This document shows positions 5,306-23,500 of a DNA stretch of 64,000 nucleotides, one piece after another. The translations under genes were made by a program, and so were the position numbers. The notes beneath the pieces are model-generated. The model was not told where the DNA came from and made no database searches. It saw only the letters and a program-made list of their open reading frames with translations. The stretch is from a bacterium (GTDB lineage: Bacteria > JAHJDO01). Within the stretch, counting starts at the first letter, position 1, and the number at the start of each line of letters is the position of its first letter. Location of the stretch: assembly GCA_030652805.1 (NCBI GenBank), contig JAUSPT010000054.1, positions 39,209 through 103,208 of the forward strand, written 5' to 3'.

Positions 5306-6780
5306 AGATAATTATCGCATATCCGCCGCTTAGCTGCAAAGGAAACAAGAAAAAGGTCCCTCTTCTTTCCCAGAACAGACAGTTTCAATGGTTTCACAGT
5401 CCTACCTATATCTATCCCGTTGTTCCTGCCTGCGCTGCAACTATGCTCAAGAATGCCGGATATAACATGATCTGGTGTGACGGAATAGCCGAGAAAAAGA
5501 CGTATAAAGAATTTTTGAATTTTGTTGCTGAAGAAAATCCTGATTTGATAATGATGGAAACAAAAACGCCGGTAGTCAAACAGCACTGGAAAATCATCAA
5601 CGAACTCAAGATTCAAAATTCAAAACTCAAAACTGTCCTTGTCGGCGATCATGTGACTGCATTACCGGAAGAGAGCATGAAAAACTGCAATGTTGATTTT
5701 ATCCTGACAGGTGGAGATTACGATTTCCTTCTCCTTAATCTATGCGAGGTTCTAAAAAAACTCATCACTCATCACTCATCACTCATCACTAAATTAGAAC
5801 CCGGTATCTGGTATAGAAAAAACGGGGACATAAGAAATACGGGCAAGTTTAAGCTTGATCATGATCTAAATACTCTTCCTTTTATTGACAGGGATTTAAC
5901 AAAGTGGCAGTTATATGCGTATAAAAATGGAAATTATAAGCGGACACCCGGCACTTATATAATGGCAGGAAGGGACTGCTGGTGGGGGAAATGCAAGTTT
6001 TGTTCATGGACCACGCTCTATCCGAATTTTAGAACCAGAAAGCCAGAACATGTTTTAGATGAGATAGGAACGTTGATTGAGAGGTATCACATAAAAGAAA
6101 TTATGGATGATACGGGAACATTTCCTGTCGGAGAATGGCTGAGAGAGTTTTGTGATGGAATGATAAAAAGAGGATACAATAAAGAAATAAGATTTAGCTG
6201 CAATATGAGATTCGGCACGTTAGAGCAAAAAGATTATGATTTAATGGCAAAAGCCGGTTTCAGGTTTATACTCTACGGACTGGAATCCGCAAGACAGGAA
6301 ACACTTGACAGGATACATAAAAACCTCAAGGTTTCTGCAATAACAGAAGGCGCAAGAATGGCTAAGCAAGCAGGCTTGCATCCGCATCTTACAACAATGA
6401 TAGGATATCCATGGGAAACCAAAGAAGATGCATTAAGGACAATTCAACTCGCAAAGGAGCTTTTTCGCAAAGGCTATGTAAATACACTGCAAGCAACAAT
6501 AGTAATACCATATCCAGGAACGCCTCTTTTTGACGAATGCAAAAAAGGCAATCAGCTGAGAACTCTGGATTGGAACAGATATGACATGCAGGAACCTGTA
6601 ATGAAAACTCCTCTCACAGATGCTGATGTAAAACAATTTACACAGGGACTTTACAAGTCTTTCATAACTCCCGGTTTTATATTCAGAACTATAACTTCTA
6701 TAAGGGACTTTGATGATATAATTTTTATACTGCGCGCAGTAAAATCAGTTCTTGGGCATTTAACGGATTTTAGAAAATGA
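5302..6780 (+). CDS. B12-binding-type radical SAM protein with two heptamer-repeat inserts
   Basis: 492 aa. An N-terminal cobalamin-binding-like domain (about 1-170, with VLVGDHVTALPEE and DFILTGGDYDFL) is followed by a radical SAM barrel. The cluster motif is C226-WWGK-C231-KF-C234, a CX4CX2C spacing also seen in some GCWWGKC-type members rather than the commonest CX3CX2C. Later motifs include ILYGLESARQETLDRI and MIGYPWETKEDAL. The substrate is unknown; in glycan clusters such enzymes are candidates for methylating or rearranging sugars or lipids. Residues 101-111 and 154-163 are encoded by two different heptamer arrays (5604-5634, 5761-5790) that keep the frame open. Confidence 0.85.
   Translation: MKIIIAYPPLSCKGNKKKVPLLSQNRQFQWFHSPTYIYPVVPACAATMLKNAGYNMIWCDGIAEKKTYKEFLNFVAEENPDLIMMETKTPVVKQHWKIINELKIQNSKLKTVLVGDHVTALPEESMKNCNVDFILTGGDYDFLLLNLCEVLKKLITHHSSLITKLEPGIWYRKNGDIRNTGKFKLDHDLNTLPFIDRDLTKWQLYAYKNGNYKRTPGTYIMAGRDCWWGKCKFCSWTTLYPNFRTRKPEHVLDEIGTLIERYHIKEIMDDTGTFPVGEWLREFCDGMIKRGYNKEIRFSCNMRFGTLEQKDYDLMAKAGFRFILYGLESARQETLDRIHKNLKVSAITEGARMAKQAGLHPHLTTMIGYPWETKEDALRTIQLAKELFRKGYVNTLQATIVIPYPGTPLFDECKKGNQLRTLDWNRYDMQEPVMKTPLTDADVKQFTQGLYKSFITPGFIFRTITSIRDFDDIIFILRAVKSVLGHLTDFRK
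5604..5634 (+). repeat. Heptamer array (ATTCAAA/ACTCAAA), 4 units, inside CDS
   Basis: Units ACTCAAG, ATTCAAA, ATTCAAA, ACTCAAA, then ACT. Three heptamers equal seven codons, so the unit is read in all three frames (KIQNSKLK) without a stop on this strand. It lies in the B12-domain part of the radical SAM gene. Confidence 0.8.
5761..5790 (+). repeat. Heptamer array (CTCATCA), 4 perfect units, inside CDS
   Basis: Four exact CTCATCA units plus CT encode LITHHSSLIT. This is 127 bases after a different heptamer array in the same gene. The plus strand of the unit has no stop in any frame, while the minus strand (TGATGAG) does. Confidence 0.9.
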
Positions 6781-7689: not shown

Positions 7690-7717
7690 GGGAAATAGAA
7701 AATGGAAAAAGGGAAAT
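7690..7717 (+). repeat. Heptamer array (GGGAAAT-type), 4 units, spanning a start codon
   Basis: Units GGGAAAT, AGAAAAT, GGAAAAA, GGGAAAT, then GGGG. The ATG of the four-helix-bundle gene (7702) lies inside the array. The array at 8119-8160, after the stop codon, is the same class in inverted orientation (AATTCCC), so the gene sits between inverted repeats. Confidence 0.75.
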
Positions 7718-8118
7718 GGGGTCAGATTAGGCATTTTAGTGATATAGAAGCATGGAAGATAGGGAGAGAAGTCAGAAAGAGTGTTTATGCATTTATTAAA
7801 ACATTACCTGATGGAGAGAAATATAATCTTAGTTCTCAAATGAGGAGAGCAGCAGTCTCTATCACAGCTAACATTGCTGAAGGATATGGACGGTATCACT
7901 ATCAAGAAAATATTCAATTCTGTCGGCAAAGTAGGGGTTCTATATATGAAATGCAAGACCATTTGATCACTTGTTTAGATGAGGGATATATTGCTAAAGA
8001 GGATTATGAGAAAATTTATTCTTTATACGAAAAAGCTACTAAGGCAATTAATGGGTATATTAGACTGCTTAAAAGGCAGCAAGCAGAGAATAAAGAGAGA
8101 ATAGCAAATGGTAAATAG
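7702..8118 (+). CDS. Four-helix-bundle protein (23S rRNA intervening-sequence/S23 family)
   Basis: 138 aa and full length for the family. The diagnostic segments are [37 protein letters not shown] and YIRLLKRQ. The family (TIGR02436, related to Avd of diversity-generating retroelements) forms a basic pentameric helical bundle thought to bind nucleic acid. It was first seen coded in intervening sequences of 23S rRNA in Leptospira and Coxiella. No rRNA is present here. The ATG at 7702 and codons 1-5 lie in a GGGAAAT heptamer array, and the stop codon abuts an inverted AATTCCC array. The following GT2 reading frame starts 11 bases inside this gene. Codon use and the flanking repeats suggest an inserted cassette. 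Confidence 0.9.
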
Positions 8119-8160
8119 AATTCCCAAATCCCAATTCCCAGTTCCCAATTCCCAATCCCC
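8119..8160 (-). repeat. Heptamer array (AATTCCC), 6 units, after the four-helix-bundle gene
   Basis: Units AATTCCC, AAATCCC, AATTCCC, AGTTCCC, AATTCCC, AATCCCC. Given as minus because GGGAATT, its complement, matches the GGGAAAT class at 7690. Each unit can pair with the 5' array with one A-A mismatch per seven bases, so the transcript could fold the two arrays together with the gene in the loop. Confidence 0.9.
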
Positions 8161-8230
8161 ATTGGTAAGCATAATAATCACAACTAAAAACGAAGAGAAA
8201 AACATAGAAAATTGCTTAGAATCAATCCTG

Positions 8231-8286
8231 AATTCCCGTTTTCCAATTCCCAGTTCCCAATTCCCAGTCTCCAATTCCCAATCCTC
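8231..8286 (-). repeat. Heptamer array (AATTCCC), 8 units, inside the broken GT2
   Basis: Eight units (AATTCCC, GTTTTCC, AATTCCC, AGTTCCC, AATTCCC, AGTCTCC, AATTCCC, AATCCTC) sit exactly between the helix [10 protein letters not shown] and the strand IEIIVVDNN of the GT2 fold, where GT2 enzymes normally have only about six residues. Confidence 0.9.
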
Positions 8287-8349
8287 AATCGAGATAATCG
8301 TAGTGGACAACAACTCAACTGATAAAACCGTTGAGATTGTCAAATCCTA

Positions 8350-8381
8350 TTGTCATTGCGAGGCGAAGCCGAAGCAATCTC
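8350..8381. repeat. Short palindromic element (TCATTGCGAG...GCAATCTC type)
   Basis: TGTCATTGCGAGGCGAAG followed by CCGAAGCAATCTCA has ATTGC/GCAAT outer arms and a GGC-GAA-GCC hairpin centre. I recognise this as a type of dispersed palindromic repeat found in many bacterial genomes. Here it is in frame in the GT2 remnant, adding CHCEAKPKQS. Confidence 0.75.
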
Positions 8382-8447
8382 ATATTCGATTTTACACAAA
8401 AGGCCCAGAGCGTTCTGCCCAGAGAAATTTTGGAGTTAAGAAAGTAA

Positions 8448-9659
8448 ATGGATAAAGTTGCAATTGTTTCTACGATTCAACCAGAAACGCATTACACGAG
8501 ATATTTGTATAAAGAGTTGAAAAATATAAATGAAAATATATATTTATTAATTGATGATATTCCAGAAAATGATGAATTTGTAGAAGGACAAAAAGATAAA
8601 AATATAATTAAATTGTGGAAAGCAAACTTATCATTGCCATTTGCAATAAATAGATTTGTGAAATTAAATAATATCTCAATAGTGCATTTGCAGCATGAAT
8701 TTAATATGTATGGAGGAATTAAGGGTATTCCTATTTTTCTTTTTACAATGATATTTTTAAAGATCGTCAGGAAGAATATAGTTGTTACAACTCATGCTGT
8801 TGTCGATTATAGAACAATAGACAATGATTTTCTTGAAACATTTGTTTTGGACAAATTTAAAAGAATTAAAGATATTGCAAAAATTGCATTTTATTTGTTT
8901 TACAAGGTCGTTGGTTTAATAGCAGATAAGGTTATAGTGCACTCGAATTTTACTAAACAAATTTATATAGATTCATATAAGATAAAAGAATCAAAATGTT
9001 TTGTTATTCCAATTGGTGTTAATAATTTAAGTAGCGTAATTGCCAATGATAAAGGATTAGATTCTAAAACAGAATGGTCAGAAGAGATCAAAGGTAAAAA
9101 TATTATATTGTATTTTGGATATATTTTAAAAAGAAAAGGGCTTGAGTTGTTAATCCAGGCTATTTCAAGTCTGAAAAATGATATCCCTGATAATGTTGTT
9201 GTCTTGGCAGGTGGGATGTTGGAAAATCAAAAAGGATATGTGGACTATCTTAAAAAAATGATAACTGAGAAAGGGTTAACTAAGGAAATTATTTTTACGG
9301 GTTTTTTATCTAAAAAAGAGATTGACTTTCTATATAATAAATGTGATTTTGTAGTGCTTCCATATACGTATTCAATTTCATCTAGTTTGCCTTTATCTCT
9401 GGCTTTTGAAGCAGGAAAGCCCGTAATAGCTAGCGATATAGGGACATTAAGGGATGAGATAATAGATAATGTCAACGGTCTATTTTTCAAGAACGGAGAC
9501 TTAAAGGAATTATGCGATAAGATATATCTGTTGAGTACGAATAATAACTTGCTGAGGCGACTGCAAAACGGAGCGAAACGCGAATTTGGAATAAGGTCGT
9601 GGGCTAAGATAGCCAAACTAACTAATGAGGTAATATACTCAAATAAGAAGCCAAATTGA
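8448..9659 (+). CDS. GT4-family glycosyltransferase
   Basis: 403 aa, GT-B fold. The C-terminal domain carries the GT4 donor-site features: ILYFGYILKRKGLELLIQAI, VLAGGMLE, IFTGFLSKKEIDFLYNKCDFVVLPY, and the E-x7-E-like stretch SSLPLSLAFEAGKPVIASD. The N-terminal domain has IVHLQHEFNMYGG and VVTTHAVVDY. It would add a sugar to a lipid-linked glycan at the inner membrane. The start lies 8 bases before the end of the truncated GT2 frame. The stop overlaps the following methyltransferase start. Donor and linkage are unknown. Confidence 0.9.
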   Translation: MDKVAIVSTIQPETHYTRYLYKELKNINENIYLLIDDIPENDEFVEGQKDKNIIKLWKANLSLPFAINRFVKLNNISIVHLQHEFNMYGGIKGIPIFLFTMIFLKIVRKNIVVTTHAVVDYRTIDNDFLETFVLDKFKRIKDIAKIAFYLFYKVVGLIADKVIVHSNFTKQIYIDSYKIKESKCFVIPIGVNNLSSVIANDKGLDSKTEWSEEIKGKNIILYFGYILKRKGLELLIQAISSLKNDIPDNVVVLAGGMLENQKGYVDYLKKMITEKGLTKEIIFTGFLSKKEIDFLYNKCDFVVLPYTYSISSSLPLSLAFEAGKPVIASDIGTLRDEIIDNVNGLFFKNGDLKELCDKIYLLSTNNNLLRRLQNGAKREFGIRSWAKIAKLTNEVIYSNKKPN

Positions 9660-16938: not shown

Positions 16939-19286
16939 AGATGAAAAAGTTTTTTCTGCGACACTGGTACTATTTGTTGATAATTTTTCCGTTGCTGATA
17001 TTTATCTACTCTGTATGGGACCGTAGTTTTTATATGGGGGGAGATGTGATGTTCCCTTTAGATCCCGTTAATAATATGCAGAGGATATTTTTATGGGACA
17101 ATGACGCTGAATCTTTTCGCTTCGTCTGCACCTCCTGGTTTTTGTTTTTTTATCTGTTTTTTTTAATAGGATTTCCTGCCTTTGTAATTCAAAAAATTCT
17201 TCTAGTCCTCTTATTGGTTTTTGGTTTTACATTCACTTATCTGTCTTATGCGGAATTATTCAAAGGAACAAAATATGATTCCGATAAATGGAGATTTCTT
17301 GCAGGCATTGTTTTCACTTTTAATCCCATTTATTTGTTGCTGTGCCCCGCTTATCTGCCTCTTTATGGTTTTCCTGTATGTTTTTATTTTCTGATGAAAT
17401 TTTTACGCAGCAACAAAATTATTTATGTTTTTTTCTTTTCTATTTTCTTAAATTTTTTCTTTTTTTTGGAATTGCCACAGCCCAAACAGTTAATAGTCTT
17501 CGCCTTGGCATCTTTTTGTCTTGCATATCTGTATCAACAAGTAAGAAATCTTATCTTCAGGGACGTTTTTGCCCGGTTAATGAAAATTTTTCTTTTGAGT
17601 GCGTTATTGAATTTATGGGTTTTAATTCCTCTTCTTCATAACATGTTTTTTGGGATTGGGGCAACTTTTGCTAGAAACTTGGTAACCTATGGCGGGGACG
17701 CGGATCTTAAAACGGCAACGTTGGTTTATATCGCAAGATTTTTTAATTTAAATATCATCCTATATTACCCGCATCTAAAATCGTTTTTAACGAGTGCGCC
17801 TTTCATTTTTTGGACGTTCGGCCAATGGATACTTATCGTCTTAAGCATGTTTTTTATTATTAAGGATAGAAAATCCCAAAAAATCATCACAACCCTGCTC
17901 CTCGTGGTTCTTTTTTTTATCTTTGTTGCAAAGGGTTCTAATCCTCCATTAGGGGAATTGTATCGTTTTGCTATCATGCACATCCCGCTGACAAGAATGT
18001 TTAGAACGTCCTCTACGGTTGTTACTGGCGCTGTTGTTTTTTATGCTTTTTTATTTTCCATGGCGATGTTTAATTTATTTAGGAATCGGAAGGTCTGGGT
18101 TTATGTTTTTATTGTTTTAAATGTCGTATCCTTCTATCCTATTTATTTTGGTTACAAGTTCTACAATCCGATCCCATTTGCCCCCGAAAAGAAGGGACAT
18201 ATCATCCCTCAGGCTTATTTCGAAATAGGGCGTTTTCTTGACGCTATTAAAGAGGATTCGAAGATTCTGTCCATTCCTCTGCACAGGGGGGGATATGTTG
18301 AAAAAAACTGGGGCTATTTCGGTTCTGATCTTTTGAGCTGGATTACAAAAAAACCTTTGATCTATCGCGAAGGTGGTAATGTAATCACAGTAGAGCAAAA
18401 AGAGAATAGTTCAAAACTTCCGGAGAGCTACAGAGAATACGCTTTAAATAATGCAGGATATCTTCTTGTTAAGAAAGATACGGTCGGCGGTAGATATCCC
18501 AAATACGATTATCCTGACAGGAAGGATCTTTTAATAAGAAATGACTATTTTGACCTCTACAAAATCTCCGACGAATACTTTCTTCCCCACATCTACGCAT
18601 CCACTACTTCAACTATTATCAATGGCAATATGGAAGCATTGGTGCCGCTTACGGAGACGAAATACCTAGGAGGAGGAAAACGGGAAATGGGAAATGGGAA
18701 ACGGAATAAACAGGTGCTATTATTTACGGAACAGGATAAGGCAAGAGGTAAAGGTGGAGGTAAAGAGAAGGCAAAGGAAGAGGTGAAGGTGGAGGGAAAA
18801 GGTAAAGAAGAACCTGAGATTATATTTAAGAAGATAAATCCGACGAAATATTTGGTAAAGGCAGAAGGAGCTAAGACGCCGTTTTGGCTGGTGTTTAGTG
18901 AGAGTTTTCATAAGCAGTGGAAGATTTACAGACGACAGACGACAGACGACAGACGACAGATATTTCAGGAGATTGTGGCGGATTATCCAAAATTGAAAGT
19001 TAAAGAGGCAAAGCATTTGATGAAATTTACTCCGCAGGATATTAAATTTTTATTTAGAAAACCTCTGGATGCGCAGCATCAATTGGTGAACGGATATGCC
19101 AATGGATGGTATATTGAGCCGAAAAAATTGGGATTAGAAGAGGACTTTACTTTGGTTCTGTATTTCTGGCCCCAGTCACTTTTTTACTTAGGACTTGGAA
19201 TATCTGGGCTAACGTTACTTTGTTGTTTAATTTATTTGACATATAGGTGTTTTCCCTTCTCTGTCAAGAGAAGGGGTAGGGGATGA
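16935..19286 (+). CDS. Large GT-C-like membrane glycosyltransferase (arabinofuranosyltransferase/YfhO-like)
   Basis: 783 aa with about 12 hydrophobic segments up to residue ~420, a long extracytoplasmic domain, and a last membrane segment before the C-terminus. FYMGGDVMFPLDP near residue 35 gives the acidic site expected in the first periplasmic loop of GT-C enzymes, and the overall build resembles alpha-(1->3)-arabinofuranosyltransferase/YfhO proteins. These use polyprenyl-phosphate sugars in the periplasm. The outer domain is disrupted three times by repeat-coded peptides (residues ~583-589, ~602-626, ~665-676), between the ordinary segments YLGG, IIFKKINPTKYLVK and HKQWKIY. The C-terminal codons run into a palindromic repeat. 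Confidence 0.78.
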   Translation: MKMKKFFLRHWYYLLIIFPLLIFIYSVWDRSFYMGGDVMFPLDPVNNMQRIFLWDNDAESFRFVCTSWFLFFYLFFLIGFPAFVIQKILLVLLLVFGFTFTYLSYAELFKGTKYDSDKWRFLAGIVFTFNPIYLLLCPAYLPLYGFPVCFYFLMKFLRSNKIIYVFFFSIFLNFFFFLELPQPKQLIVFALASFCLAYLYQQVRNLIFRDVFARLMKIFLLSALLNLWVLIPLLHNMFFGIGATFARNLVTYGGDADLKTATLVYIARFFNLNIILYYPHLKSFLTSAPFIFWTFGQWILIVLSMFFIIKDRKSQKIITTLLLVVLFFIFVAKGSNPPLGELYRFAIMHIPLTRMFRTSSTVVTGAVVFYAFLFSMAMFNLFRNRKVWVYVFIVLNVVSFYPIYFGYKFYNPIPFAPEKKGHIIPQAYFEIGRFLDAIKEDSKILSIPLHRGGYVEKNWGYFGSDLLSWITKKPLIYREGGNVITVEQKENSSKLPESYREYALNNAGYLLVKKDTVGGRYPKYDYPDRKDLLIRNDYFDLYKISDEYFLPHIYASTTSTIINGNMEALVPLTETKYLGGGKREMGNGKRNKQVLLFTEQDKARGKGGGKEKAKEEVKVEGKGKEEPEIIFKKINPTKYLVKAEGAKTPFWLVFSESFHKQWKIYRRQTTDDRRQIFQEIVADYPKLKVKEAKHLMKFTPQDIKFLFRKPLDAQHQLVNGYANGWYIEPKKLGLEEDFTLVLYFWPQSLFYLGLGISGLTLLCCLIYLTYRCFPFSVKRRGRG
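18682..18702 (+). repeat. Heptamer array (GGGAAAT), 3 units, inside CDS
   Basis: GGGAAAT, GGGAAAT, GGGAAAC encode GKREMGNGKRN-like residues in the outer domain of the large membrane protein. Same class as the 7690 array. Confidence 0.8.
18739..18810 (+). repeat. Hexamer array (GGTAAA/GGTGGA class), about 12 units, inside CDS
   Basis: A 72-base purine-rich stretch with six-base period encodes a Lys/Gly/Glu run beginning KARGKGGGKEKAKEE. It is the longest coding example of the hexamer class in the window. Confidence 0.75.
18929..18960 (+). repeat. Heptamer array (CAGACGA), 4 perfect units, inside CDS
   Basis: Four exact CAGACGA units plus CAGA encode RRQTTDDRRQ and interrupt the conserved-looking HKQWKIY/IFQEI segment. 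The unit is stop-free in all frames on both strands. Confidence 0.9.
19254..19275. repeat. Palindromic repeat CCCTTCTC-N6-GAGAAGGG at a gene end
   Basis: Perfect 8-base arms with a TGTCAA loop, followed by GTAGGGGATGAGTT. It codes the last residues of the membrane protein (PFSVKRRGRG). I recognise the arm-loop-GTAGGGGATGAG layout as a dispersed bacterial repeat type. It has no T-run, so a terminator role is doubtful. Confidence 0.6.
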
Positions 19287-22207: not shown

Positions 22208-23500
22208 ATGAAACCATATAAATATAATCTGATAGTTATAGTTCTCTTCACTATTCTTGCTCTTATAATTACTTTTCCTGTTATCTTTAATATGAGTAAA
22301 TTAATCTATGGCTATCCTGATGATACGCTCGGTACAATTTGGGGGATTTGGCGAGACGGAAACGCGTCTCTTCAGATTAAAGACTTTTTATTATTCCCTG
22401 CAGTAAATTATGAAACAGGTGATTACAATATATATATTCATACTTTGTGGCCTATAATAAATTTCTTAACTAACGAAGTGATCACATGGAATATTGTCTC
22501 CATTTCCAATTTTATTCTTTCGGCTTTTTTTATGTATCTTCTTGTGAAATACCTGACAAAAAGCAGAATAGCGGCATTTATTTCAGGCGTCATCTACGGC
22601 TTTTGCCCTCATATCTGCATGCAGTCTTTTAATCATATAGCGATTGCTGCAATTCAATGGATGCCGCTGTATATTCTATTTTTGTTGAAATTAGTATTTG
22701 AGAAAAACTACAGGAACGCAGTTTTATGCGGAGTTTTTTACGCATTGGTTGTTTTCTCCAATCCGTATTATGGCTATTACATGCTTCTATTCACTATTGT
22801 ATTTATTATTTTCTTAGTATTAAAACATATCAAAAATCTATACGCAGTGATAAAGGAAGATAGATTTAAAATATTTAAATTAGCTGGCGTGACTTTTTTG
22901 ACTGCTCTAATTATTGTCGTTCCGGCCGAATACAAGATAATCAAGACAATGTTTTCAAAAAGCAAGGATAAGCCTGCTGTTTTCACTCGCCCATTGGAAG
23001 GATTGATATTTTCAGGAGCTCGACCCAAGGATTTCATGCTTCCTCCGAGAACAAATCCTGTGCTCAAAAATATCTCTAAGCCATTTATCTCTCCTGATTT
23101 CGGCAGTATGATAGACCATACCCTGTATCTTGGATATACACCGCTAATCTTATCTGCTATTGCAGTGGGATTTTGGTGGAAGAGAAGGAAAAATGGAAAA
23201 TGGAAAATGGGAAATTCCCAATTATCTGTTGTTATCCCATTTTTTCTAATAATATTCTTTGCTTTTGGAATTATGTCCTCTCCTCCATGGATACCTATTG
23301 GTGCAGCGAAACTGAACAGCGCTCCATTCAAGCTTCCCATGCCATCATATTTTCTTCATAAGCTGTTTCCGATGTTCAGGTATTATTCAAGAATGGTTGT
23401 TGTAATGATGATATCATTGAGTGTGCTTTCAGGAATTGGGATAAAATTCTTATTAGAAAAATTTAAAACTCCCAATTCCCAATTCCCAATTCCCAATTAA
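22208..23500 (+). CDS. GT-C-like membrane protein, N-terminal part, frameshifted at a heptamer array
   Basis: 430 codons with about 10 membrane segments. It starts MKPYKYNLIVIVLFTILALI and has GYPDDTLGTIWGIWRD in the first outer loop, the acidic site expected of GT-C/YfhO-like transferases. SNPYYGYYMLL and WIPIGAAKLNSAPFKLPMPSYFLHKLFPMFRYYSRM are further conserved-looking parts. The frame ends [15 protein letters not shown] and a TAA that lies inside an AATTCCC array. The natural C-terminal domain continues in another frame (23500-24030). One extra heptamer would join them. Residues ~328-338 are coded by another heptamer site at 23190. Confidence 0.8.
   Translation: MKPYKYNLIVIVLFTILALIITFPVIFNMSKLIYGYPDDTLGTIWGIWRDGNASLQIKDFLLFPAVNYETGDYNIYIHTLWPIINFLTNEVITWNIVSISNFILSAFFMYLLVKYLTKSRIAAFISGVIYGFCPHICMQSFNHIAIAAIQWMPLYILFLLKLVFEKNYRNAVLCGVFYALVVFSNPYYGYYMLLFTIVFIIFLVLKHIKNLYAVIKEDRFKIFKLAGVTFLTALIIVVPAEYKIIKTMFSKSKDKPAVFTRPLEGLIFSGARPKDFMLPPRTNPVLKNISKPFISPDFGSMIDHTLYLGYTPLILSAIAVGFWWKRRKNGKWKMGNSQLSVVIPFFLIIFFAFGIMSSPPWIPIGAAKLNSAPFKLPMPSYFLHKLFPMFRYYSRMVVVMMISLSVLSGIGIKFLLEKFKTPNSQFPIPN
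23190..23220. repeat. Head-to-head heptamer arrays: (AAAATGG)3 meeting GGGAAATTCCC
   Basis: Three AAAATGG units (the GGGAAAT class) run directly into GGGAAATTCCCAATTA, which is the start of the opposite AATTCCC class. No gene lies between. It reads through in frame (NGKWKMGNSQL) and looks like an empty or collapsed version of the inverted pair around the gene at 7702. Confidence 0.75.
23467..23500 (-). repeat. Heptamer array (AATTCCC), 3 perfect plus partial units, at a frameshift
   Basis: Three exact AATTCCC units (23474-23494), flanked by CTCCC and AATTA. The last partial unit supplies the TAA that stops the upstream frame. Adding one unit, or removing two, puts the downstream frame in register. 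Confidence 0.9.

Follow-up and report, generated by a model that had tools for sequence, protein, structure and literature searches.

The window analysed here is a stretch of 64,000 nucleotides (G000:C54:39209-103208) that forms part of a 2.0-Mb assembly. It carries an S23 (four-helix-bundle) gene set between two short tandem arrays, next to a glycosyltransferase frame that holds an array of its own:

7690-7717, + strand: 5' arm, a degenerate heptamer array (GGGAAAT AGAAAAT GGAAAAA GGGAAAT) that contains the S23 start codon (direct reading; TRF score 33, period 7, 80% matches)
7702-8118, + strand: S23/four-helix-bundle gene, 138 amino acids (PF05635 23S_rRNA_IVP, E 8.5e-33; TIGR02436, E 1.9e-30)
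8108-8455, + strand: short glycosyltransferase family 2 open reading frame (PF00535, 8.8e-18)
8119-8161, + strand: 3' arm, an AATTCCC array of the reverse-complement class of the 5' arm, abutting the S23 stop (TRF score 65, period 7, 86% matches)
8231-8289, + strand: second array of AATTCCC units in 3'-arm orientation, within the glycosyltransferase frame (TRF; RNA fold)

This arrangement, which a preliminary description had reported from the sequence, is confirmed: the ATG of the S23 gene (at 7702) lies within the 5' array, and its TAG (8116-8118) directly abuts the 3' array (AATTCCC AAATCCC AATTCCC AGTTCCC AATTCCC AATCCCC A). The protein is a full-domain member of PF05635 (113 bits against a curated cut-off of 33.8) and a member of TIGR02436 (105 bits against a cut-off of 24), and related structures have been solved for XCC0516 (2GSC, E 6e-39) and in entry 2RLD. 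S23 proteins assemble as pentamers and have a four-helix-bundle fold (2GSC; PMC4990558). The ATG of the glycosyltransferase frame (8108) overlaps the S23 stop, and the frame runs through the 3' array; the S23 copy stands between protein genes and not in an rRNA gene, the location of an rRNA intervening sequence (IVS).

Solo heptamer arrays also occur elsewhere within protein-coding frames of the window (5760-5790, 18928-18960, 23190-23215 and 23470-23498, in addition to 8231-8289). The frames that hold them are a radical SAM-like gene, the glycosyltransferase and membrane proteins, and the encoded peptides include THHSSLIT and NSQFPIPN. At about 8352-8383, the glycosyltransferase frame further contains a palindrome-like stretch, tcattgcgaggcgaagccgaagcaatctca, which we take to be similar to dispersed bacterial repeats.

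The two arms in the window had been described as near-complementary, with the suggestion that the RNA could fold into a stem with the gene in its loop. Their units are indeed complementary at six of seven positions (GGGAAAT/GGGAATT), whereas the inverted match of the flanks scores only 11 (against 10 in direct orientation), a value equalled by 4.5% of random placements. The RNA of the window locus has no excess stability (z +0.3), and its minimum-energy fold pairs the upstream array with the array at 8231-8289. The 5' arm is degenerate, and the window locus alone would not prove any claim about a class of elements. The significance of the arrangement rests on a family-wide test.

We sampled S23 genes from relatives and random genomes, together with 80 named loci from many phyla, none of them picked for arrays. 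At 75 S23 loci, the 200 nt upstream were compared with the reverse complement of the downstream flank, arrays not being required, and size-matched neighbour genes (simple longest-ORF calls) served as controls. An inverted match of at least 12 was found at 55/75 S23 loci (73%) versus 17/358 neighbours (4.7%; Fisher 2e-37), and one of at least 16 at 37/75 versus 8/358 (Fisher 6e-25). The control is conservative, since genes adjoining S23 share its flanks. When S23 flanks were given shuffled partners, 3.3% reached a match of 12, as did 7/75 in direct orientation. Arrays were also paired irrespective of flanks: in 1.217 Mb of named loci, we collected tandem arrays of 6-9 bp with complementary units no more than 1.5 kb apart, and 16 of the 18 inverted pairs enclosed an S23 gene (inner distance 372-472 bp), as against none of the three direct pairs. 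The preliminary description had proposed that inverted short arrays should be enriched beside other family members relative to size-matched genes, and both comparisons bear this out. The median length of the S23 cassettes is 464 bp. Roughly a quarter of S23 genes have no inverted match of at least 12, and some of these may be settled genes rather than mobile ones. Arms are scattered across an S23 tree built from few columns and with weak forks, and the cassettes had no match in the phage collection.

The repeat unit varies from locus to locus among S23 cassettes. Within a locus, the two arms may agree at every base, with their variant units in the same order (33/33 at both L062 and L115, 36/36 at L014 and 24/24 at L117), and at most loci the match drops when one arm is slid by a single unit. 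This agreement down to the variant units indicates that the two arms are related as copies and are not independent microsatellites. The arms are also polar, with G exceeding C in the 5' arm at 34/37 loci; ribosome binding, G-quadruplex formation and R-loop formation are possible reasons for such a strand bias. In the RNA of L106, the arms can form a long stem with the S23 frame in the loop (z -9.0), which is the architecture of an IVS. Two further arrangements were noted in passing. At 7601-7731 of L117, two inverted arrays stand alone around a 73-bp loop, and their unit (AGGGACC/AGGGACT) is nearly that of the S23 cassette 2.2 kb away. In genome G012 (L151-L154), there are 19 S23-like matches, many of them forming opposite-strand pairs separated by a few hundred bases, and no heptamer arrays; this is a different arrangement of the S23 family.

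S23 genes follow the direction of their surroundings. Among loci with neighbours within 400 nt on either side, S23 was co-directional with both neighbours at 52/65, compared to 323/650 control triples (p 5e-7), and the median gaps to the two neighbours were 46 and 33 nt. Operons split by S23 include pheS|pheT (L113 in Granulicella mallensis and, independently, L058 in Chloroflexus), nuoC|nuoD (L105, Bosea), leuC|leuD (L112), cheB|cheA (L064) and tolB|pal (L007), the gene names being our reading of the protein sequences rather than the result of a database search. Some copies adjoin or separate tRNA genes (L019, L011). No rRNA match was found near S23 at the 20 loci examined, and an rRNA location was rejected for these copies (0/20 loci). 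We also rejected a 1595-aa frame containing S23 at L004, which proved to consist of consecutive Ns in the assembly.

A search for empty sites succeeded at one of the insertions. In genome G020, prfA and the gene before it lie approximately 545 nt apart, with S23 and its arms between them; in all seven classmates of G020 (7/7), the same upstream gene adjoins prfA across a gap of about 75-165 nt. No empty site was found for the window locus within its genus, where synteny is not conserved and the best match of the neighbour gene is only 27% identical.

Genome G058 holds the best-mapped family. It has four S23 copies at four sites, with cores 97-99% identical, and the copies share the ends GTTAAGCGC...AATACAAGAC(G), which lie beyond the arrays. 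Short hairpins make up the 3' end, and no target duplication was seen at the insertions. One copy splits a ferritin gene (the halves match positions 4-99 and 97-141 of PF00210), and removing the insert by script rejoins the ferritin frame; the family of G058 comprises two genomes, the other of which has no ferritin gene in which to look for the site. Another copy lies right at the beginning of an ATP-sulfurylase/APS-kinase gene, and the insert leads in frame into the rest of that gene. The 3' end is present 36 times genome-wide, mostly in 201-bp units that lack S23 and often stand in tandem. A pepF-like gene (again named by our reading) is broken up by three such units, and its frame is rejoined when they are excised by script. 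The 201-bp units, each equivalent to 67 codons and with shared ends, run in tandem at L142 (2976-4230) and L284 (965-1568), and those of L284 lie within the pepF-like gene near its HExxH-like region. Since both the ferritin and the pepF frames are stopped by these insertions, the host is not always spared. The RNA of the whole G058 element is not unusually stable (z -0.4), while that of the S23-less unit has a z of -4.6. The pattern matches an element that carries a gene and has derivatives without it.

These data support the cassette interpretation put forward in the preliminary description, which had the cassette inserting and spreading with short tandem arrays as its ends. Spread is supported by the empty sites and by the four-site copies within one genome. 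The role of the arrays as ends holds only as a description of anatomy, and the true ends in G058 lie beyond them.

We consider it likely that the S23 gene and its complementary flanks together make up one IVS-like mobile cassette, about 430-600 bp long, whose insertions into transcribed DNA are mostly in sense. The observations behind this reading are the inverted complementary arms found across phyla, the variant units common to both arms, the sense orientation and the empty sites, together with the recent multi-site copies that have precise ends and no target duplication and the S23-less derivatives with the same ends. The cassette would be a selfish element, IVS-like and generalised beyond rRNA, and would insert mainly where one gene of a transcription unit meets the next. 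Once transcribed, the arms may anneal to give a stem whose loop contains the S23 frame; such a stem could let the host tolerate the insert, as RNase III would be able to cut it in the manner of the rRNA cases, and overlapping stop and start codons may keep the downstream gene translated. Complementarity of the arms could be maintained by mutual copying, through template switching within the hairpin, or because the stem is under selection. The S23 protein, in which there is no recognisable catalytic domain, probably binds nucleic acid, and movement would be catalysed by an enzyme acting in trans. Solo heptamer arrays in S23 genomes may be remnants or non-autonomous relatives, and the copy in the window is plausibly an ageing one with a decayed 5' arm.

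Which enzyme might act in trans leads to a reading that is a version of the above with the enzyme named. As in REP/RAYT systems, a Y1 (HUH) single-strand transposase coded elsewhere would recognise the hairpin ends and move both S23 cassettes and S23-less arrays, with S23 a passenger or accessory. Y1_Tnp genes are found in 24/24 S23-bearing genomes and 17/35 of those without S23 (p 7e-6; 59 genomes, G000-G058, uncorrected for phylogeny or genome size), Y1 and S23 copy numbers rise together in several genomes (19 and 8 in G044; 9 and 7 in G020), and the hairpin ends and missing target duplications of G058 are in keeping with such an enzyme. Inverted heptamer pairs, however, flanked none of the 20 Y1 loci read, unlike what membership in a REP/RAYT system would entail, and G058, with the most active family, has a single weak Y1 match, inside an 817-aa frame. 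We regard this version as rather unlikely. The simpler idea that the Y1 transposase owns the arrays was rejected: it co-occurs with S23, but 0/20 of its loci have inverted arrays.

The tight operon spacing and overlapping stop and start codons would also suit a host-serving regulator, in which S23 and the stem form a settled operon module that tunes downstream expression and complementarity is kept by that selection; many Bacteroidota S23 genes without strong arrays would fit as well. Different operons are hit in each genome, however, and relatives have empty sites; the disrupted ferritin and pepF genes and the recent multi-copy spread also count against this account, which we hold to be very unlikely. 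Retro-movement, with a reverse transcriptase copying the cassette RNA and S23 acting like its homologue Avd of diversity-generating retroelements, draws on the homology of PF05635 to Avd (PMC10053308) and on sense insertion into transcribed operons, which fits an RNA intermediate. We judge it highly improbable: RVT_1 occurs in 7/24 S23-bearing and 9/35 other genomes (p 0.77), so that the reverse transcriptase expected in a diversity-generating retroelement is not associated with S23, and the account is already strained by S23-rich genomes without RVT_1 (G044, G058, G020, G022, G005 and G057). Movement driven by reverse transcriptase was rejected on this lack of association, and the enzyme seems not to be required. 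Known RNA families and introns were likewise rejected as contents of the cassettes, the only Rfam matches being to tRNAs nearby and, once, to a group II intron next to an S23 fragment, and a group I/II intron core was looked for at 12 loci, including the G058 copies, without any Rfam intron match. The group II match, at L023 (G035), adjoins the S23 fragment and is not inside it, and a reverse transcriptase gene also lies beside the fragment. Finally, chance placement of S23 among the ordinary microsatellites of repeat-rich genomes, for which the window, with its several solo arrays built from the cassette's own unit and its marginal flank match, might speak, is scarcely credible and is refuted for the class by the enclosure of S23 in 16/18 inverted pairs, the low rates with shuffled partners (3.3%) and direct orientation (7/75) and the agreement in variant-unit order, though it is possible for the window's single locus.

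If the S23 cassette is IVS-like and mobile, as we favour, it may bear on the heptamer repeats scattered through bacterial genomes. In regions within 20 kb of contig starts, period-7 arrays numbered 4.44 per 100 kb in S23-bearing genomes (33 regions, 473 kb) versus 0.80 in genomes without S23 (40 regions, 627 kb), uncorrected for phylogeny. At least one heptamer array was present in 12 and 2 of these regions, respectively (p 8e-4), and arrays of other periods were flat (10 versus 6 in total). Heptamer arrays are not tied exclusively to S23: four of them occur in G079 (L258), where S23 was not found. We tentatively suggest, at somewhat less than even chances, that S23 cassettes are a bacteria-wide mobile class whose tandem-array arms are generated and copied in the life cycle, that scattered heptamers arise in large part from S23 activity and that the ribosomal IVS is the special case that landed in rRNA.

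Seven-bp arrays like those of S23 cassettes have been described in Xanthomonas, where GGGAATC heptamers form many inverted pairs (70 in X. campestris), mostly just 3' of an ORF (PMC4692102), and in Beggiatoaceae, where a mobile origin was considered for TAACTGA heptamers (PMC4679880); a text search of these papers finds S23 unmentioned, yet X. campestris has an S23 gene, XCC0516. According to a 2015 paper, no detailed literature was available on the over-representation of 7-bp repeats in bacteria (PMC4692102), and our full-text search, mostly of open-access literature, returned no earlier report linking S23 outside rRNA with tandem arrays. On the cassette reading, a family annotated as "four helix bundle protein" without a function, and known until now mainly from inserts in rRNA genes, could be recognised in many phyla as a mobile cassette. 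The rRNA IVS would then be one part of a larger class, and the excess of 7-bp repeats in bacteria would have a cause open to testing. Many of the operon interruptions that are annotated as ordinary genes may likewise be insertions.

Among known systems, classical transposons and IS elements fit poorly: S23 is the sole gene coded in the cassette, and the G058 insertions show no duplication. REP/RAYT (REPIN) systems consist of dispersed short hairpin-forming repeats in which forms without the gene outnumber the form that carries it. S23 cassettes resemble them in having both forms, the gene-less being the more numerous, but differ in that the cassette gene is S23 and not a Y1 transposase, the unit varies by locus and the Y1 genes read lack arrays. 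Avd is a homologue of PF05635 (PMC10053308), but co-occurrence indicates that S23 cassettes do not need the reverse transcriptase. The closest relatives are the 23S rRNA IVS that encode S23 proteins in Coxiella and Leptospira, which have the same protein family, a similar size (428-444 nt in Coxiella) and complementary ends; such ends are found across the class (55/75 loci; z -9 at L106) and are weak in the window copy (score 11, z +0.3). Unlike rRNA IVS, S23 cassettes occupy protein operons, the spaces between tRNA genes or the interior of coding genes, and their arms are usually long tandem arrays, with RNase III cutting presumed from the rRNA cases. In the Coxiella 23S IVS, which RNase III cuts, three tandem GACAGAT heptamers directly precede the ATG of the S23 gene and vary in number by strain (PMC4990558). 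These heptamers independently tie the rRNA IVS to the S23 cassette class.
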